Source: a virus | IMG/VR virus record: IMGVR_UViG_3300047446_000161 | Location: 1-46,781 of that record | Strand: one strand, 5' to 3' | Length of the DNA stretch: 46,781 nucleotides | In this document: positions 22,388 through 42,332 of the stretch, piece after piece | Layout: each line of letters opens with the position of its first letter | Position numbering within the stretch: position 1 is the stretch's first letter | Translations under genes and position numbers: made by a program | The notes under the pieces: generated by a model | Database searches by the model: none | What the model saw: only the letters and a program-made list of their open reading frames with translations | What the model was told of the DNA's origin: nothing

Positions 22388-23140
22388 ATGGCACTGATTA
22401 CGGACATCCAGAAACTGGAGCCCGGCGGCGAGATTCGCCTGTTTGAAATCGACGGGACCGAGTACGGCGCCGATTACCTGCGCTTCCATGGGCACGCGAT
22501 TCCGCACACGCCCGAAGAGCTGCTGGCCTACGAGCACTCGGAAGAGGATCTGCCGGCCAAGTCCATCTGGTGGCAGGGCGAGGAATACGCGGCGTGGCCG
22601 GTGCAGATCGAGGGCATTTCCTCCAGCAGCGACGGCACCGCCTCACGCCCGACGTTCGCCGCTGGCAACATCAACGGTCGCGTCACGGCGCTGTGCCTGG
22701 CCTTCGAGGACATGCTCAAGTTCAAGCTGACGGTTCGCGAGACTCTGGTGCAGTACCTGGATGCGGCGAACTTTCCCGAGGGGAACCCAGCGGCGAATCC
22801 GACCCAGGAGGCGCTGGAAATCTGGTTCATCGACCAGAAAACCAGTGAGGACGGCGAGGCGGTGGTGTGGGAGCTGTCTTCCCCGGGCGAGATCGACAAC
22901 CACGGGCTGCCCGGCCGGCAGATGACGACGTTTTGCCACTGGGCCATGACCAATGGATATCGCGGGCCGGATTGTGGCTACACCGGCGCGGCGATGTTCG
23001 ATGACGAGGACAGCGCCACGGACGATCCGGCACTGGATCAGTGCAAGGGCTGTTTGTCGTCCTGCAAGCTGCGCTTCGGCGAAAACAACGAACTGTCCTT
23101 CGGTGGATTCCCCGCTGTTTCCCTGATAGCTCGGAGCTGA
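22388..23140 (+). CDS. L: Minor tail protein L (lambda gpL type)
   Basis: 250 residues. gpL lies in the tail tip and holds an iron-sulfur cluster in lambda. Here Cys183, Cys196, Cys219, Cys222 and Cys226 lie in the C-terminal third; the spacing 196-219-226 equals that between the last three cluster cysteines I recall for lambda gpL, so a cluster is likely. Order M-L-K is conserved. Confidence 0.88.
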   Translation: MALITDIQKLEPGGEIRLFEIDGTEYGADYLRFHGHAIPHTPEELLAYEHSEEDLPAKSIWWQGEEYAAWPVQIEGISSSSDGTASRPTFAAGNINGRVTALCLAFEDMLKFKLTVRETLVQYLDAANFPEGNPAANPTQEALEIWFIDQKTSEDGEAVVWELSSPGEIDNHGLPGRQMTTFCHWAMTNGYRGPDCGYTGAAMFDDEDSATDDPALDQCKGCLSSCKLRFGENNELSFGGFPAVSLIARS

Positions 23141-23142
23141 CC

Positions 23143-23934
23143 ATGCGCAAGCACATTGTCGCGGCCATCCAGACGCACGCGGCGGCGGAATATCCGCGCG
23201 AGTGCTGCGGCCTGTTGTTGGCCGTTGGCCGAGCGCAGAAGTACTTCCCGTGCCGGAACATCGCCACGGAGCCGAATGAAGAGTTTCGGCTTGATCCGGA
23301 GGACTACGCTGCGGCGGAAGATTTGGGCGAGGTGATCGGCATCGTTCACTCGCACCCGGACGCCACCAGTCGGCCGTCGCCGCATGACCTGGCCATGTGC
23401 GAGGCCACAGCCTTGCCATGGCACATCCTGAGCTGGCCCGAGGGCGACTTGCGGACGATCACGCCGACCGGCTGCACGCCGCTGCTCAAACGCCCATTCG
23501 TACACGGCGCCTGGGACTGCTGGCAGATCTGCGCTGACTGGTATCAGCGCGAGTGGGGGATCGAGTTCGAAGCCTTCCAGCGCGTCGATGGCTGGTGGGA
23601 GAGCACGGAGAACGCCAGTCTGTACGAGCAGCATTACGAGGCCGCTGGCTTTGTGCGGGTTGACCAGCCGCAACGCGGTGACCTGATTGTCATGCATGTC
23701 GGTCGAACGGTTCACCCGAATCACGCCGGGATCTACCTGGGCACTGATCCGGCGCTACCTGGCGAAGAGTCGGGGACCTTTGGGCCAGGCCCATTCCTGC
23801 TGCACCACCTGTACGGCAGGCCGTCCGAGATCATCGTGTACGGCGGTCCCTGGCATGACCGGACGCGACTGATCCTCAGGCACAACATGCAAAACAAACA
23901 ACATGACGCGGCTGGGCCGCAGGAAGGTCTATGA
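23143..23934 (+). CDS. K: Tail protein K: JAMM plus NlpC/P60 peptidase
   Basis: 263 residues. The N-terminal JAMM/Mov34 metalloprotease-like domain has Glu20 and the HSHP…D motif (His69, His71, Asp82). The C-terminal NlpC/P60 domain has Cys126 (GAWDCWQ) and His194 (PNHAGIYLG) and should cut peptidoglycan peptides during DNA entry. Start at 23143 is chosen for its GGAG six bases upstream. Fragments of both domains survive in the second prophage (38465-38821). Confidence 0.92.
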   Translation: MRKHIVAAIQTHAAAEYPRECCGLLLAVGRAQKYFPCRNIATEPNEEFRLDPEDYAAAEDLGEVIGIVHSHPDATSRPSPHDLAMCEATALPWHILSWPEGDLRTITPTGCTPLLKRPFVHGAWDCWQICADWYQREWGIEFEAFQRVDGWWESTENASLYEQHYEAAGFVRVDQPQRGDLIVMHVGRTVHPNHAGIYLGTDPALPGEESGTFGPGPFLLHHLYGRPSEIIVYGGPWHDRTRLILRHNMQNKQHDAAGPQEGL

Positions 23935-24104
23935 CATTTCCGACTGATGCAAAAATGATGGAAAACGAAGATGGGCGTGATTCTGCTGATGCCTATCTGG
24001 CAGTTGCTGATGACGCAGCTGCTAGACAGGCCGATTCAATTAGAATCGCCCTTCAGCAGCTGCTAGAAAATTCCCAATCATCTTGTTGTAATGATCCTCA
24101 TTGA
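23931..24104 (+). CDS. Small protein after gpK, K-I island
   Basis: 57 residues beginning MTFPTDAKMMENEDG, coupled to gpK by ATGA overlap, acidic and helical, with a Cys-Cys near the end. Too short to identify. Its last 65 bases overlap the convergent small gene at 24040-24264. In the second prophage an unrelated 53-residue gene takes the same place. Confidence 0.45.
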   Translation: MTFPTDAKMMENEDGRDSADAYLAVADDAAARQADSIRIALQQLLENSQSSCCNDPH

Positions 24105-24264
24105 GCGTCCCGTTTTCTCGATCGACATCTGAGAAAAATTGAAGCGCGTCTCGAAAGGCGGTGGTGTTGAGGTCACCGGACTTCTTCAGACTCAGAATTA
24201 GTGCGAGCAATGCGGATGTGTTAGCAAAGTGCCCGGCTGCTGCTGCGAACTCGTTTTCGCTCAT
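24040..24264 (-). CDS. Small helical protein with conserved 80-bp leader, copy 1
   Basis: 74 residues, helical; GGAGG lies just before the ATG. It shares a pattern (…LLALxLxLKxSG…N…A…QFF.D…) with the 90-residue protein at 39054-39326, and both share a near-identical leader, so they are members of one cassette family. Function unknown. Transcribed against the tail operon, so probably expressed in the lysogen. Confidence 0.6.
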   Translation of the reverse strand: MSENEFAAAAGHFANTSALLALILSLKKSGDLNTTAFRDALQFFSDVDRENGTLNEDHYNKMIGNFLAAAEGRF

Positions 24265-24345
24265 TTGACCTCCAGGTCATAAACGCGCCGAAATTGGCGC
24301 AATCCCAGTCCTTGGGCTTGCAGGCGAAGGACTGGGGGAATCCTT
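24265..24345 (-). promoter_or_regulatory. Structured leader element, copy 1
   Basis: 81 bases, differing from 39328-39407 by one substitution and one indel. Read on the minus strand it has a 10-bp perfect hairpin (CCCAGTCCTT / AAGGACTGGG), a 5-bp hairpin GCGCC/GGCGC, and TGACC-TGGA-GGTCA, which includes the GGAGG ribosome site. The left limit coincides with the stop codon of the upstream minus-strand gene. It looks like an intercistronic or 5' regulatory element that could hide the ribosome site. Confidence 0.6.
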
Positions 24346-24602
24346 TATGCTTTTGTTTTAGTCATCACGATCAGCTCCCAAAGCACATCAGCCTTTGAGC
24401 CTGGGTGCTGGTGATCGTTTTGGGGAGGAAAGTCATCGCCTTTGTTGGATGTGATTTCGCTGCCGCATCCGGTGCAGCGATAAATTCCAGAGGCCGGTAC
24501 TTTTGCACTGATGCCGTAGGTCTTCCCCCATTCCTCTCCAGCAAGGATGGTTGGGTGGATCTGGGTAATTCGGTGGGCTGTATTCGCAGTTACAAATGCC
24601 AT
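24345..24602 (-). CDS. Small zinc-binding protein
   Basis: 85 residues. A probable zinc ribbon: YRCTGCG (Cys-X2-Cys) with a later FPP and His-Gln-His. The start at 24602 is set by GAGGGA upstream; the frame extends 11 codons further without a site. It precedes the leader-linked small gene on the same strand, so the two may form one unit. No function known. Confidence 0.6.
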   Translation of the reverse strand: MAFVTANTAHRITQIHPTILAGEEWGKTYGISAKVPASGIYRCTGCGSEITSNKGDDFPPQNDHQHPGSKADVLWELIVMTKTKA

Positions 24603-24745
24603 TGTCGTTCCCTCACATGACTTTGCAGGAGGCACAAAGCTACTACGCCGCGTCCTGTCTCAGTTACTGGCATTCCATCCACGCTGGATGCCCGGACAGG
24701 CAAAGTGCTATCGTCGGTTTTCAATCAAGGCGAAGGAGTCGCAAC

Positions 24746-24901
24746 GTGGCAGCAGTGAAGACATTTGTGTTCAAGTTGAAAGCAAGCAACGGTTCCGGGA
24801 TGAGCAATGTGCTTCAGAACGGGGTGGATCAGCGGGAGGCTGAACGAAAAATACTCGCTAAGTATCCAGGCGCGACAATTTTAGAAGTCCGCCAGCAATG
24901 A
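24746..24901 (+). CDS. Small conserved-type protein
   Basis: 51 residues from a GTG start with AAGGAG eight bases upstream. The sequence VKTFVFKLKASNGSGMSNVLQ and the AERKILAKYPGATILEV ending resemble a widespread gammaproteobacterial small-protein family of unknown role. The open frame extends upstream to 24596 but that part has no ribosome site. It ends at a strong terminator. Confidence 0.6.
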   Translation: MAAVKTFVFKLKASNGSGMSNVLQNGVDQREAERKILAKYPGATILEVRQQ

Positions 24902-24906
24902 GAAAT

Positions 24907-24931
24907 AGCCCAGCCCCGCGCTGGGCTTTTT
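24907..24931 (+). terminator. Intrinsic terminator
   Basis: AGCCCAGC-CCCGC-GCTGGGCT followed by five T, six bases after the stop of the small gene. Confidence 0.85.
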
Positions 24932-25010
24932 GTATGTGGCAGGAAATATCGGGTTAATGAAAATCCATTCGAGCGTGATATCGTTTTGCCTCTTGCAGTG
25001 GAGGTAGTGG

Positions 25011-25439
25011 ATGAAGATCAAAAATTGGACGGGCTGGGAGCCAGTGTGGCTCAAACTGACCGAGCACTACCTTGATGCCCCGGCCGCACCCGGTGCATAT
25101 CTAATCTGCGCCGATAGAGCTATTCACCGCGCTGTAGGCGTCGATGATAATGGCGTCCTGACTATTGGCGAATCGGATAATTTGAGGCGCCGCCTTGCTG
25201 CGTTTGTTAGATGCGCCAAAAATCCTGGTGCCGCTGGGCATATGGCCGGCTGGCGCTTCAATTACGCGGCTTTCGAGAAGGTTTTTCCGTTGGAAACTCT
25301 CTGGGTTAGCTGGCATCCGACTGTTGATAAAGCCACAGCTTACGCAAAGGAAGGAGAGATGCTTGCACTCTACTTGGCCGAGCACTATGAGCTGCCTCCC
25401 CTGAACTACAAATTTAATTGGCCCAGGCTTGAAGGTTAA
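25011..25439 (+). CDS. GIY-YIG-like protein, K-I island cargo
   Basis: 142 residues. PGAYLI (Gly28-Tyr30) followed by LTIGESDNLRRRL (50-62) matches the GIY and YIG strands plus the Arg-bearing helix of GIY-YIG nucleases. A later Glu115 (KEGEMLALYLAEH) and Asn132 (PPLNYK) fit the metal Glu and the conserved Asn. A nuclease role is plausible; the first Tyr position is displaced relative to the consensus, so activity is uncertain. GGAGG precedes the ATG. It is its own unit between a terminator and the lipoprotein gene. Confidence 0.55.
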   Translation: MKIKNWTGWEPVWLKLTEHYLDAPAAPGAYLICADRAIHRAVGVDDNGVLTIGESDNLRRRLAAFVRCAKNPGAAGHMAGWRFNYAAFEKVFPLETLWVSWHPTVDKATAYAKEGEMLALYLAEHYELPPLNYKFNWPRLEG

Positions 25440-25500
25440 CAGCGCTGGTTGATCGGTTTGTGCCGCGCTACAGTTCCTGATTTCAGAACAAGGAAGAATT

Positions 25501-25923
25501 ATGCGGATTTTGATAGCGGCGGTAGCAGTTGCGATGCTGGCAGGTTGTGCATCTACAGCGATTTCAGTGCGTGACGCGAGGCCGGTACCGGCCGATGAGG
25601 TGTACGCATTCCAGTCCAAGCCAGCAGGCGAAAGCGGTAAAATCACTGTGGTGCGCGACTCCGGCGCGGTCGGCTCCGGCTGCGACATCGTTGTCTATGT
25701 TGATGGCCGACGAGCTGCAAAAATCGGCACCGGCCAACGGGCCACATTCTACCTTCCGCCAGGATCCCCCAATCTCGGTGCCGGTCTGGCTGGTTCTGGT
25801 TTGTGCGCAGGCGCTGCAATCCGGACCATTGGTGCGACGGTGCAACCTGGCAAGGAAAGTCTCTACAGGATCAGCGGAGACATGTCGGGCTTCTACATCG
25901 GGCCGTACGTCGACTACAACTGA
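25501..25923 (+). CDS. Lipoprotein upstream of gpI, copy 1
   Basis: 140 residues. Signal MRILIAAVAVAMLAGC with lipidated Cys16; the mature part is beta-rich with Gly-rich turns and two more Cys. The signal peptide is nearly the same as that of the lipoprotein at 41823-42173 in the second prophage, but the mature parts are unrelated. AAGGAAG precedes the ATG. As a lipoprotein expressed beside tail-tip genes it may block receptor use or DNA entry of related phages; this is only suggested by context. Confidence 0.7.
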   Translation: MRILIAAVAVAMLAGCASTAISVRDARPVPADEVYAFQSKPAGESGKITVVRDSGAVGSGCDIVVYVDGRRAAKIGTGQRATFYLPPGSPNLGAGLAGSGLCAGAAIRTIGATVQPGKESLYRISGDMSGFYIGPYVDYN

Positions 25924-25937
25924 ATCCCAAACCATCA

Positions 25938-25961
25938 AAACCGCCTTCTGGCGGTTTTTTT
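25938..25961 (+). terminator. Terminator upstream of gpI
   Basis: AAACCGCC-TTCT-GGCGGTTT with a run of T, followed at once by CCTGGAGAAA and the gpI start. Confidence 0.85.
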
Positions 25962-25977
25962 ACGCCTGGAGAAAGTG

Positions 25978-26571
25978 ATGCAGGCCTCAGCAATCAACTA
26001 TCAACCCATGACGACTATTCGGCTGCACGGGCAGCTTCGGCAATTCGGGAAGTCGTTCAGGCTTGCAGTGAAGTCTCCGGCGGAGGCTATCAAGGCCCTT
26101 TGTGTGCAGATTCCGGGGTTCGAGCGTTTTTTGTCGAACGCAAAGTCGCGCGGACTTGAGTTCGCAGTGTTTCGCGACAAGCGCAACATTGGTGAAAAGC
26201 AACTGAGCTATAGCGGTGCCGGTGACATCCGGATTGCTCCCGTGGTCGTGGGCAGTAAGCGCGGCGGCATTCTCCAAACTATCGTCGGCGCGATCTTGAT
26301 TATTGTGGGTGTGATCTTCTCGGCCACGCCCTTTGGCACTCCGCTCATCGGCGCGGGCATCGGCCTTGTCGCCGGCGGCGTGATCCAGATGCTCAGCCCC
26401 CAAGCCGGCGGCCTGAAGACCAGCGCCGCGCCTGAGAACACCCCCGGCTACGGCTTTGGCAGCGCCAAAAACACCACGGCATCCGGCAACCCTGTCCCGC
26501 TTTGCATCGGCGAACGCCGCTGGGGCGGTGCAATCATCAGTGCCGCCATCTACGCCGACGACCAGATGTAG
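25978..26571 (+). CDS. I: Tail assembly protein I (lambda gpI type)
   Basis: 197 residues. A ubiquitin-like N-terminal domain with YQPMTTIRLHGQLRQFGKSFRLAV, two hydrophobic helices (about 96-140) rich in Gly/Ile, and a C-terminal segment PLCIGERRWGGAIISAAI are typical of gpI. ATG at 25978 follows GGAG; a GTG lies one codon upstream. The first 31 codons have a counterpart at 42237-42332. Confidence 0.88.
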   Translation: MQASAINYQPMTTIRLHGQLRQFGKSFRLAVKSPAEAIKALCVQIPGFERFLSNAKSRGLEFAVFRDKRNIGEKQLSYSGAGDIRIAPVVVGSKRGGILQTIVGAILIIVGVIFSATPFGTPLIGAGIGLVAGGVIQMLSPQAGGLKTSAAPENTPGYGFGSAKNTTASGNPVPLCIGERRWGGAIISAAIYADDQM

Positions 26572-26590
26572 CCGTCACTCGCAGCACCAC

Positions 26591-26613
26591 AACCGCCCCA
26601 TAGGCGGTTTTTT
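26591..26613 (+). terminator. Terminator upstream of gpJ
   Basis: AACCGCC-CCATA-GGCGGTT plus T-run, followed by ATTGCCTGGAGAAAAGC and the ATG of gpJ. Confidence 0.85.
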
Positions 26614-38201: not shown

Positions 38202-38469
38202 ATGACAACCAAGCAACCCGACTGGGAGGCAATCGAACGCGCCTACCGGGCCGGGCTGCTTTCCATCCGAGAGATCGCTTCAACCCAGGGCATCACCCAC
38301 GGCGCCATCAACAAGCGCGCCAAGCGTGATGGGTGGGAGCGCAACCTCAAGGCAAAGATCCAGGCCAAGGCCGATGCACTGGTATCCAAACGCACGGTAT
38401 CCACTGAGGTATCCACCAAACAGGCGGATACCGTGCGGGAGATCATCGAGGTCAATGCTGAGGCCATTG
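38202..38469 (+). pseudogene. Terminase small subunit, N-terminal fragment
   Basis: Near-identical to the first 88 codons of the gene at 7299, including the HTH. The match stops at CATTG (38465-38469), a 5-base microhomology shared with gpK (23154-23158) and terminase (7562-7566). The usual ribosome site is missing upstream. Confidence 0.9.
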
Positions 38470-38821
38470 TCGCGGCCATCCAGGCGCACGCGGCGGAGGA
38501 ATATCCGCGCGAGTGCTGCGGCCTGTTGTTGGCCGTCGGCCGAGCGCAGAAGTACTTCCCGTGCCGGAACACCGCCACGGAACCCCAGCCAGTACGAGCA
38601 GCATTACGAGGCCGCTGGCTTTGTGCGGGTGGACCAGCCGCAGCGCGGTGACCTGATCGTCATGCATGTGGGACGGACGGTTCACCCAAATCATGCAGGG
38701 ATTTATCTGGGCACTGATCCGGTGTTACCTGGCAAAGAGTCAGGCACGTTCGGCCCTGGCCCTTTCTTGTTACACCACCTATACGGCAGGCCGTCCGAGA
38801 TCATCGTCTATTGCGGTCCCT
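38465..38821 (+). pseudogene. gpK remnants (JAMM and NlpC/P60 pieces)
   Basis: 38465-38580 matches the start of gpK (Glu and the ECCG part of the JAMM domain) in frame with the terminase piece. A second deletion then joins, out of frame, the C-terminal P60 part (YEQHYEAAGF onwards, with PNHAGIYLG) from about 38594. The P60 frame is stopped at 38821 by TAG where the intact gene has TGG. Catalytic His71 and Cys126 equivalents are lost. Confidence 0.88.
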
Positions 38822-38902
38822 AGCACGAGAGAACACGCCTGATACTCAGGCATAAAGACGCAAAACAACCAACATGACGTGATTCAGCAGCAGGAGATTT
38901 GC

Positions 38903-39064
38903 ATGAAGAACAAAATTACGCGCGCGAAGGTCGGGAGTGTCATTTGCAGCGCTGCGAAAAACGCGGATGGTTCCCCTGTTTGGATTCTTTCTAAAGGCGG
39001 CGGCATCTCAATAAGCGCGCTGCCTAAGGAGTGCCGCTCGAGCTCTTCAGCTATCAGTGCTTAG
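38903..39064 (+). CDS. Small protein after gpK remnant, K-I island
   Basis: 53 residues, start at 38903 with AGGAG upstream. Basic N-terminus, a Gly-Gly-Gly turn and a Ser-rich end. Holds the same place as the 57-residue gene at 23931 but is unrelated. Convergent and slightly overlapping with the next gene. Confidence 0.45.
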   Translation: MKNKITRAKVGSVICSAAKNADGSPVWILSKGGGISISALPKECRSSSSAISA

Positions 39065-39326
39065 ACTCATCTTGTCCCAGCCATTGCATGACCTGAGCTT
39101 GGTCGCTGAGGATAATCCTTAGAGGCCTTGCGTAAGCCTCTTCCGCTTCAGGACCCCGAAATGGCTGAGGCACTTTATTGTCCAAGAAGAACTGAGTCAC
39201 CTTTTTCAATGCGTCGTTATTGAATCCTGGTGATGCCTTCAGGGCGATTGCGAGAGCGCCCAAAGCATTGACAACGCCAACGCCAACGTCGAATGCCGAC
39301 ATGCTCACTTTTACTTCTTCTGTCAC
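39054..39326 (-). CDS. Small helical protein with conserved 80-bp leader, copy 2
   Basis: 90 residues from a GTG start (GGAGG four bases upstream; the frame is open further but runs into the leader). The N-terminal half has NALGALAIALKASPGFNNDALKKVTQFF, resembling the 74-residue gene at 24040 in pattern; the C-terminal part is extended. Function unknown. Confidence 0.6.
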   Translation of the reverse strand: MTEEVKVSMSAFDVGVGVVNALGALAIALKASPGFNNDALKKVTQFFLDNKVPQPFRGPEAEEAYARPLRIILSDQAQVMQWLGQDESKH

Positions 39327-39327
39327 A

Positions 39328-39407
39328 TTGACCTCCAGGTCATAAACGCGCCGAAATTGGCGCAACCCCAGTCCTTGGGCTTGCAGGCGAAGGACTGGGG
39401 AATCCTT
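39328..39407 (-). promoter_or_regulatory. Structured leader element, copy 2
   Basis: 80 bases, about 97% the same as 24265-24345, in the same place just before the ribosome site. The 10-bp and 5-bp hairpins are fully kept, whereas the coding sequences downstream have diverged widely. Confidence 0.6.
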
Positions 39408-39522: not shown

Positions 39523-41415
39523 TTATGGTGCTTTAATTCCGGGGCTAACTGTTGAGTTCACGAACTCAAGCACTTCCATTAGGCTGTTTAGCGTGTCTTT
39601 AGAAATAGAGGCTCGATCTATCTCGGATTCTGCGCATTTTTCCGACAAATACCAGCCTATTTGTTTCTTTGAAGGTGAGTTGGTTATTTCGTAATGGTTT
39701 TTAATCAATTCGATTGTGTTGCAATCAAGTAATTTCTCTAGAGCTACCTCCGAAAACTTTTCACTAATTGTCGCTAAAGTAAATACCGTCGCATCGGGAA
39801 GGAACCAGTCGGCCTTATACCGTGCGCATTCTTTTCTCCCTGCGGTATCATCATCAAGTAGGACTAGGAAGTGCTCACCTCTTCCCATCATTAGGCTTAT
39901 TAGAGGGCCGCTAGCACCTGAGCCGACACCTGGCAATATTCTAAAGTGCAGATTGATTCTGCTGATTTTCTGCGCAATTATTAATGCGTAGTAATCTGAT
40001 ATGCCTTCGACCAACAGATAAGGCGGGGCGCCTATTAATTCGGGCGTTATATAATCCAGACTTTCAATGACTGGCTGGAAGTAGCTAGATCTTGATGGGT
40101 AGTTTGAAAGGAACTCTTTGTATTTTGTGGCTTTAATTTTAGTGGGATTGAAGGAGAATTCAAAATGCTCTCCTTCATCTGGATTGAGTGCGGTATTTTC
40201 TACTATGTATGCGCCTCCTAGCCATCTAGGGTTTATCATGTGATGACTATGTGTTGAATATATTATTTTAGTTCCGTTAGTTGCAATTTTTTCAAAGCTT
40301 TTCAAAAGTTCTGCTTGTGCTTTTGCATGTAGATTTGCAGCGGGCTCGTCGAATATTAAAATAGATGGTTTGTTGCTGTCTCCTTTAAAGGCGGTGAACA
40401 AGAGAAACGAAAAAAACCAGCGAAACCCTAATGAGCGCTCGCTAATTTCGTAGTCAGACTCGCCGTCCGATACCATAAAGGAGGCATATGGAATATTGCC
40501 TTTACTTGTGTCAATATTCCACGTTATTGACATCTGCTTGGCTGAAGAGTCTTTTGAAAATACCCGCTTCCAACCACCAATAATTTCTTTTGTAACTAGG
40601 TTGGACGCCTTTTTAAATACTGCATCAATTAACGACTTTTCAGGGCTTGTCATAAAATTCGCAGGCCAGCTCGAATTTGGCTGGTTGACTGCGTAAGTGC
40701 TAATTCTGCGAGATACGTGTTTCTCTAAATCTAATCCTTCATCTATGCCCTCCATAATGGATTGAAATATGGATCGGTAATGTCGATTTGCGGCGGTTTC
40801 ATTTTCGTGTTCTTGTAAATATATTTTGTTTGGTATGTCTACAAGAAATGTTGGAAAATACGCAAGACTAGGAAGGTTCTTATGTAATGCATTCATACTT
40901 GCGAGCCAGAATTCCTCTGTTTCGCCGTCAGGCAGGCACTCGATAAACTCAGTGCCTTTTTTAGAGCGCACCCATAAATCAGCGTTCCACATGTCACTTG
41001 AAGATACAAGTATGCTATCTTCGAAAAGCATTTCTTTTGTTAGGGTGAATGGTTTGGATATTCGCTCTAAATCTATATAAAAGTCATTGGATTTTGCGAG
41101 CGAGGAGATTTCGCTGATATCTTTTTCATTAAGCACTACAACTGCTTCTATCTCTATGCTTGCATTGAATGCGGAACGTCTATTAATTGGAATTATTTCG
41201 TTGGTTTTGGTTTTGGCGCGGTTTCTTCCGAATATGCTTGATACTAATTTATCGCTACTAACAAAGTAGGATAGAGCCTCTAATATTGTGGTTTTGCCAC
41301 TTTCGTTTAAGCCGATTAGTGTAATGATTGGGCTGTTTGTTCTATCGTCTAGGGCAATAGATGTTTCTTCTATTCCCTTGTAATTTCTTATTGTGAACTT
41401 CTTAATTTCAGGCAT
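39523..41415 (-). CDS. OLD-family ATPase-TOPRIM nuclease, K-I island cargo
   Basis: 630 residues. An ABC-type ATPase: Walker A GLNESGKT (35-42), signature SERSLGF (325-331), Walker B ILIFDEP (352-358) and a His-switch STHSHH (387-392). A C-terminal TOPRIM domain has Glu470 (LLVEGISD) and Asp521-Asp523 (LLDDDTAG). This is the overcoming-lysogenization-defect class, which degrades DNA and serves in phage exclusion. The start is at MPEIKKF, where family proteins begin; 28 codons upstream are open. Clearly AT-rich compared with phage genes, so it is foreign cargo. No helicase or other partner gene is adjacent. Confidence 0.85.
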   Translation of the reverse strand: MPEIKKFTIRNYKGIEETSIALDDRTNSPIITLIGLNESGKTTILEALSYFVSSDKLVSSIFGRNRAKTKTNEIIPINRRSAFNASIEIEAVVVLNEKDISEISSLAKSNDFYIDLERISKPFTLTKEMLFEDSILVSSSDMWNADLWVRSKKGTEFIECLPDGETEEFWLASMNALHKNLPSLAYFPTFLVDIPNKIYLQEHENETAANRHYRSIFQSIMEGIDEGLDLEKHVSRRISTYAVNQPNSSWPANFMTSPEKSLIDAVFKKASNLVTKEIIGGWKRVFSKDSSAKQMSITWNIDTSKGNIPYASFMVSDGESDYEISERSLGFRWFFSFLLFTAFKGDSNKPSILIFDEPAANLHAKAQAELLKSFEKIATNGTKIIYSTHSHHMINPRWLGGAYIVENTALNPDEGEHFEFSFNPTKIKATKYKEFLSNYPSRSSYFQPVIESLDYITPELIGAPPYLLVEGISDYYALIIAQKISRINLHFRILPGVGSGASGPLISLMMGRGEHFLVLLDDDTAGRKECARYKADWFLPDATVFTLATISEKFSEVALEKLLDCNTIELIKNHYEITNSPSKKQIGWYLSEKCAESEIDRASISKDTLNSLMEVLEFVNSTVSPGIKAP

Positions 41416-41822: not shown

Positions 41823-42173
41823 ATGCGGATTTTGATAGCGGTAGTATCGGTGGTGATGCTGGCAGGATGCATGGCTCCAACCATGAACGAGGCGCGCCAG
41901 GCGGGGCCATACAAAGTGCTCGCCTCGAAAAAATCCGACGCCGCACTGGCTAAATGCGTTCATTACGAATGGCAGAACCAGCCGATCTTCGGCGGAGCGC
42001 CAGGTGCAACGCTTCAGCCTGGGCGCGATACGGGTTACACCGTATTCACCGAGGGCTCGGAGTATTTCGTTGATATTCAGCCGCAAGGCTCGGGCTCTGT
42101 AGCGAAGTATTACGTGGTGCTCGGTAACTGGATCGCCAACAAGAGACTATCGGCCCTTCAAGGCTGCCTGTAG
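41823..42173 (+). CDS. Lipoprotein upstream of gpI, copy 2
   Basis: 116 residues. Signal MRILIAVVSVVMLAGC (Cys16), GAGGGA before the ATG. Mature domain unrelated to that of the lipoprotein at 25501, with two further Cys (about 45 and 115) that may form a disulfide. Followed by a terminator and the gpI remnant, as in prophage 1. Confidence 0.7.
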   Translation: MRILIAVVSVVMLAGCMAPTMNEARQAGPYKVLASKKSDAALAKCVHYEWQNQPIFGGAPGATLQPGRDTGYTVFTEGSEYFVDIQPQGSGSVAKYYVVLGNWIANKRLSALQGCL

Positions 42174-42236: not shown

Positions 42237-42332
42237 ATGGCGGCACTGGCCATCAATTACCAACCCATGACCACGATTCTGCTTTATGGACAGCTTCGCC
42301 AGTTTGGGCGGTCCTTTAGGATGGCGGGGTAA
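42237..42332 (+). pseudogene. Tail protein I, N-terminal remnant
   Basis: 31 codons: MAALAINYQPMTTILLYGQL and on to GRSFRMAG, then stop. The first 29 match gpI at 25978. Homology to the phage ends at about 42325, so this is the right edge of recognisable phage sequence. Confidence 0.85.

Follow-up and report, generated by a model that had tools for sequence, protein, structure and literature searches.

The K-I gap of Pseudomonas lambda-like phages: a cargo site with a candidate portable promoter and a structured leader

Introduction

Several relevant features of phages are already known: cargo located between the tail genes K and I, hotspots whose contents are exchanged, conserved promoters ahead of acr genes and the SAS elements of mycobacteriophages. 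This study deals with the K-I interval in a viral DNA stretch of 46,781 nucleotides (IMG/VR record IMGVR_UViG_3300047446_000161, positions 1 to 46,781), the whole of which is hereafter referred to as the window, and with its counterparts in related Pseudomonas phages and prophages. Many of these intervals hold unrelated genes behind one or both of two common elements: a promoter-like element, here named P, and a conserved 80-bp leader. The regulatory module made up of P and leader appears to be new; no description of either was found in the open papers searched, in Rfam or in the annotation under the GenBank phage matches.

The closest described case is found in phage HK022, where gp20 is annotated between K and I, and gp22 and gp23 between I and J, all of them as morons. 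The morons of HK022 and HK97 occupy the same tail-gene position as the cargo reported here, they are extra genes absent from relatives and they include a minus-strand moron in I-J. Unlike them, the Pseudomonas K-I gap is nearly always filled, with up to 9 kb of unrelated cargo that has P and leader in common.

P2/P4 phages, in turn, carry variable hotspots of antiviral systems (Rousset 2022, PMC9122126). Both those hotspots and the K-I gap combine a fixed position in the phage and conserved flanks with exchanged contents that include defence genes. The K-I gap differs from them in that (i) it lies inside the tail-tip operon of a siphophage; (ii) its defence genes are a minority; and (iii) its cargo shares a regulatory module. 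In acr-aca operons, a conserved promoter region stands ahead of diverse small phage genes (PMC9410906). The likeness lies precisely in one conserved upstream region serving diverse small genes; here, in contrast, neither an aca gene nor the inverted-repeat core promoter of those operons was recognised, and the sequence of P is different and not sigma-70-like.

Cluster K mycobacteriophages have SAS, a 13-bp repeat (GGGATAGGAGCCC) located at many genes of one genome (PMC3203893). SAS and ESAS, like P and the leader, are conserved and oriented elements with inverted repeats, placed upstream of the start codons of different gene families. Nevertheless, P and the leader are present in about one to two copies per genome and are tied to antisense cargo, and the consensus of neither corresponds to the SAS sequence. 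Finally, Tab is a moron defence gene of phage JBD26 (PMC10884400). It is likewise a small prophage gene in the late region, and it is expressed from the prophage, but it lies between the terminase genes and no sequence shared with the present cargo is known.

From the evidence given below, the K-I gap of Pseudomonas lambda-like phages is best explained, with a probability of roughly 0.74, as a moron docking site where a portable promoter and a structured leader would drive exchangeable cargo.

The K-I gap in related phages

Relatives were gathered with proteins I and K from IMG/VR, GTDB genomes and GenBank phages, repeats were removed, and a gap was counted as filled when it reached at least 200 bp. 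By this measure, K-I is filled in 112 of 113 distinct loci (median 1.8 kb, maximum 9.0 kb). The other tail gaps are seldom or never filled: H-M in 0 of 98 loci, M-L in 0 of 101, L-K in 3 of 110 and I-J in 24 of 112. The empty site, in which K and I overlap, can be seen in one locus (L168) and in phage PARCL1pr.

The contents of the gap change from phage to phage. The cargo clusters into 180 protein families (102 of them singletons), a shared cargo family is found in 8% of locus pairs, and the mean G+C content is 0.51 in cargo vs 0.61 in tail genes. A lipoprotein of family F0 is the final gene ahead of I in 102 of 114 intervals and, because of this constancy, it is considered a resident of the site and not exchanged cargo.

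A preliminary description of the window, made from its sequence alone, had proposed an accessory hotspot with conserved borders, and these figures support it strongly: related phages neither lack the insertion nor always carry the same genes there. Two marks of morons are also present, insertion between genes that are adjacent in relatives and a base composition unlike that of the neighbours, as are the conserved flanks and variable contents of a P2/P4-type hotspot. P, at a fixed distance from start codons, is a candidate for a promoter of the cargo's own, and terminator-like hairpins are candidates for its terminators.

At L116, L122, L123, L126, L129-L131 and other loci, a gpI-like gene was seen without a recognisable K or J nearby; L116 is a prophage remnant that still has the leader, a zinc-ribbon gene and the lipoprotein.

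Element P

The consensus of P is CTGTCCAGGCATCCAGCGTGGATGGAAtgCCAGTAAC-N16-GTAGTAGCgTTgtGCCtcca (190 unique copies), which in IUPAC code reads TGKAYGRAW-N2-CCAGTARC-N16-RTAGTAGC-N-TY-N-TGCC. Between random pairs of copies, identity amounts to 86% and 93% in the two boxes and to 30% in the spacer, the latter being the background value; conservation is also at background outside -29..+43. The spacer has a length of 16 bp in 132 of the 145 unique sites and of 15 bp in the other 13; no other length was found between 8 and 26.

P precedes either the leader or the first minus-strand gene. Both elements are antisense to the tail genes and recur in most loci with minus-strand cargo: P is found in 70 of the 90 intervals that have a minus-strand gene and in none of the 24 that do not (Fisher 6e-13), and its hits lie on the minus strand in 78 cases out of 80 (plus strand in 2). 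The distance from P to the start codon has a median of 36 nt when there is no leader (middle half 33-39, 41 families) and is 96 nt when the leader lies between. These fixed distances therefore suggest promoter geometry with a short 5' untranslated region. The genes downstream of P or leader belong to 59 different families, most of them without known function, including several families of proteins of about 80 residues and a widespread zinc-ribbon family, which provides the commonest first gene behind P and in which CxxC and QH are invariant (alignment, 37 relatives).

Two readings of P in terms of familiar signals were rejected. The scan gave no sigma-70 match (a TAGCNT -10 is possible, unsupported by a -35), and a LexA-like reading of the left half (CTG-N10-CAG) fits the CTGTACGAAT variant alone.

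The leader

The leader is found in 55 of 114 intervals. It invariably lies on the minus strand, a genome has about one copy, and the copies are 90-98% identical. Its conserved part consists of two hairpins, to which many copies add a Shine-Dalgarno hairpin. Of the cells, 95% remain paired, 4 pairs show changes on both sides, and the covariation score is higher than in all 500 shuffles. A conserved GGCGCG closes the leader, and the ribosome-binding region beyond it varies with the gene. The start codon is located 20-24 nt past the leader in 131 of 158 distinct cases (median 21 nt, 27 families overall). The preliminary description had noticed the leader but read it as a mark of the border; it appears, instead, to be part of the shared regulatory module.

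A single protein superfamily behind the leader was considered and rejected, since profile comparison of the families behind the elements joins few of them (2 of 378 pairs at 80% or more) and they are mostly unrelated. Regarding known RNAs, no Rfam family matched positions 22000-43500 of the window at E up to 1, and the phage records found with the leader are only three faecal contigs, unannotated. At the 3' end of the window's own leader (24265-24285), the Shine-Dalgarno sequence lies within GACC-TGGA-GGTC, a hairpin with GGA in its loop; it resembles the kind bound by RsmA/CsrA and may be a candidate site.

P and the leader beyond the K-I gap

IMG/VR was also scanned using the elements, and not the tail genes, as seeds. 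These scans placed P in K-I 85 times and the leader 74 times, and had only one flank in view 39 and 31 times, respectively. The region upstream of the tape measure gene contains some 20 further elements, with similar small minus-strand cargo genes, and P is found in I-J at four loci. Other sites of P or leader, where the translations were read, are at Mu-like baseplate genes, at head-tail genes and near lysis genes. Among 299 Pseudomonas genomes, 29 contain the exact core of P (32 sites, at most 2 per genome), vs 0 for a reversed-pattern control. Twenty of these chromosomal sites were read in 14-kb surroundings: 11 adjoin tail genes, matched by the window's proteins or readable as such, and the remaining 9 have no recognised tail genes within the 14 kb. 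The occurrence of P outside K-I as well shows that it goes with cargo and does not mark K-I as such. At two chromosomal loci with no phage tail genes nearby (L442 and L450), P is followed, some 45 bp on, by a gene resembling an HsdR N-terminal-type protein.

In a wider proposal, for and against which the odds seem even, P would be a dedicated promoter class that, through a novel factor, serves a cassette pool of unrelated Pseudomonas temperate phages (lambda-like, Mu-like and others). In any case, prophage cargo is usually found singly and by chance; the P motif marks the start and the direction of cargo. As it hardly occurs elsewhere in the host genome, it offers a means of locating phage cargo genes across many genomes.

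Cargo contents and the defence question

One representative per family was scanned for 150 cargo families, and 150 tail and other phage genes served as control. The Pfam matches in cargo include, on the one hand, AbiTii, SieB, HEPN_AbiU2, Zeta toxin, NYN, an OLD-like AAA ATPase and GNAT and, on the other hand, P22 antirepressor, Rha, Arc, HTH repressors and two chemoreceptors. With a library of defence profiles, 134 profiles matched in cargo (98 from the OLD-like protein alone) vs 3 in the control, an enrichment that is flattered by control genes that are mostly structural. Function is known for only a minority of the cargo families, among which antirepressors, regulators of the Arc/HTH kind and chemoreceptors are frequent too. 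Defence genes are enriched in K-I cargo, but they are not dominant.

The strongest of the alternative explanations is that K-I, like the P2/P4 hotspots, is dedicated to anti-phage defence, with cargo consisting chiefly of defence systems; the preliminary description had spoken of a defence island in this sense. The enrichment bears this out in part, as do the individual AbiTii, SieB, HEPN_AbiU2, Zeta toxin, NYN and OLD/AriA-like proteins. But recognisable defence genes make up a minority of the families, and sets of antirepressor, Arc and HTH genes, chemoreceptors and small unknowns are no rarer than they are. A dedicated defence hotspot is, on balance, unlikely. As for counter-defence, no anti-CRISPR family was present among the 25 NCBIfam families listed out of 96 with hits; HTH genes occur and no aca model was seen.

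Chemoreceptor genes were seen as K-I cargo at L030:8476-9786 and L072:2640-4277 (PAS-MCP and 4HB-HAMP-MCP), and a prophage with such cargo possibly alters the behaviour of its host. A second kind of cassette recurs in large intervals: it comprises an Arc-like gene, an antirepressor (Rha/P22_AR-like) and two further genes (families F22/F19/F42, F3, F14/F49 and F33), and it is found in K-I of L010, L064, L087, L090, L132, L133, L140, L147 and L161.

The role of P and the leader

Conserved palindromic elements that adjoin exchanged genes, in a unit of P plus gene that occurs at several genome positions, could also be sites at which a recombinase or integrase swaps cassettes, as in an integron, instead of expression signals. 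Nevertheless, P and leader keep constant distances to the start codon (36, 96 and 21 nt) and a constant strand; each usually occurs once, and only on one flank of the cargo; no recombinase gene was observed to accompany them; and, because the 16-bp spacer of P is random, a constant crossover core is missing. Recombination sites of this type are thus improbable. More improbable still is that P and leader are functionless relics of the common descent of one inserted cassette: the near-identity of the leader copies (about one per genome) would be expected of relics, but not a P with nearly invariant boxes around a spacer of background identity and a fixed length of 15-16, nor a P that is missing from each of the 24 intervals that lack a minus-strand gene. 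Least credible of all, a short plus-strand coding sequence (..YYxxxxx[SRG]YW..) in the late transcript, suggested by the one frame that the 16-bp spacer preserves and by the encoding of the peptide at several loci, was rejected, since it is largely refuted by in-frame stops in several copies, 15-bp spacers that break the frame and the lack of a common start codon.

According to the preferred explanation, that of a docking site with a portable promoter and leader, cassettes would dock to the left of the resident lipoprotein and be swapped between phages, most simply by homologous recombination, for which K, lipoprotein-I and the leader would provide conserved flanks. A large class of cassettes faces against the late tail operon and follows the order P, an optional first gene (e.g., zinc-ribbon), two-hairpin leader ending in a ribosome-binding site, and an exchangeable gene that is mostly small. 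Antisense transcription most likely begins at P, a few bases downstream of its second box (GTAGTAGC in the window), independently of the late promoter, and the leader may stabilise the message or control its translation. Owing to the antisense orientation and to a predicted promoter of its own, cargo could be expressed with the late operon silent; it is probably made in the lysogen, where the tail genes are silent, and might there benefit the host. Among the cargo are genes for superinfection exclusion and for abortive infection, as well as antirepressors, regulators, chemoreceptors and many genes without a known function. If the wider proposal of a dedicated promoter class is true, any gene landing behind P and leader would be expressed from the prophage, and the P motif would be a search key for as yet unknown defence, counter-defence and host-changing genes. 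It also becomes testable how temperate phages express added genes inside a silenced late operon, and whether a common signal makes cassettes exchangeable between phage types.

Several points weigh against this explanation: (i) exchange by recombination and expression driven by P are both inferred; (ii) P has no sigma-70 match and no factor is known to recognise it; (iii) 20 of the 90 intervals with a minus-strand gene have no recognisable P, including that of the OLD-like gene of a second prophage in the window; and (iv) kinship among the sequences inflates the conservation counts, though the spacers show that the copies are old and diverse.

The K-I locus of the window

Gene content in the window was established from open reading frames (ORFs), PHROGs, Pfam and a gene caller, which on shuffled DNA made 0.09 false calls/kb vs 1.96 calls/kb on the real sequence. 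The left border is tail assembly protein K (23158..23934, plus strand, start provisional; phrog_30 2e-122; Pfam Prok-JAB and NLPC_P60), with 89% identity to K of phiAH14a. A 57-aa ORF (23931..24104, plus strand) overlaps the K stop and is a weak gene candidate, as its relatives were found in none of the loci searched and the gene caller also skipped it.

The minus-strand cassette starts with P (24627..24699, 73 bp; core CCAGTAAC-N16-GTAGTAGC at 24670-24639). Next comes a zinc-ribbon-like gene of 85 aa (24345..24602, ORF reaching 24635; phrog_15514 4e-39), whose predicted model gave no confident match in the PDB. The leader (24265..24345; RNA fold z -3.7), with its two hairpins, Shine-Dalgarno hairpin and a start codon at its end, precedes a small, probably helical cargo gene of 74 aa (24040..24264; ORF list and gene caller), which has relatives at 37-38% identity in L410 and L249.

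On the plus strand, a 51-aa cargo gene (24746..24901; gene caller; relatives in L045, L288, L209 and L135) and a terminator-like hairpin followed by TTTTT (24907..24927) precede a cargo gene of 142 aa (25011..25439). The GIY-YIG label given to the latter corresponds only to a Pfam match below threshold (E 0.033), and the gene gave no match by sequence in the PDB, but the predicted fold agrees with the label: the best Foldseek matches are UvrC GIY-YIG domains (probability 0.97-1.00), then R.Eco29kI, the top match having probability 1.00 and E 0.011 with a modest model (pLDDT 60). The modelled product thus appears to be a GIY-YIG-like nuclease. The resident lipoprotein (25501..25923; phrog_890 3e-43; family F0), a terminator-like hairpin, AACCGCCTTCTGGCGGTTTTTTT, read from the sequence (25938..25961) and the right border, tail assembly protein I (25975..26571; phrog_32 3e-70; Lambda_tail_I), complete the locus, all on the plus strand.

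The second prophage

The second copy was located by aligning 23100-26600 against the window itself. It starts with a plus-strand K remnant (38465..38895; pieces 96% and 84% identical, with an internal deletion) and a 53-aa gene (38903..39064, plus strand; gene caller). The minus strand carries a 90-aa cargo gene of family F6 (39054..39326; gene caller, clustering), the leader (39328..39407; 98% identity to the first copy) and an AT-rich OLD/AriA-like AAA ATPase gene (39523..41415, ORF to 41499; Pfam and PADLOC). A lipoprotein of family F0 (41823..42173; signal peptide aligned at 41823-41869) and an I remnant (42249..42320, or up to 42330; self-comparison of the window) follow on the plus strand.

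As the preliminary description had it, both prophages have cargo between matching borders (K, leader, lipoprotein signal peptide and I) and their contents are swapped, the AAA/OLD-like gene taking the place of the zinc-ribbon, 51-aa and GIY-YIG genes. Other details of that comparison need correction. The small plus-strand genes at the left border are not homologous: the 53-aa gene of the second copy has relatives, but the 57-aa ORF of the first has none. A minus-strand gene does stand behind the leader in both copies, but the two belong to different families and are remote homologues at best (profile comparison, 57% probability). The name OLD nuclease suits the AAA part of the product, which is clear (Pfam AAA_15 1e-26; PADLOC AriA 6e-30 and Old 5e-18), but no TOPRIM domain was matched by Pfam. 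No P was found ahead of this gene, even with relaxed matching. A 90% identical copy of the OLD-like gene lies inside the K-I interval of another locus, L140.

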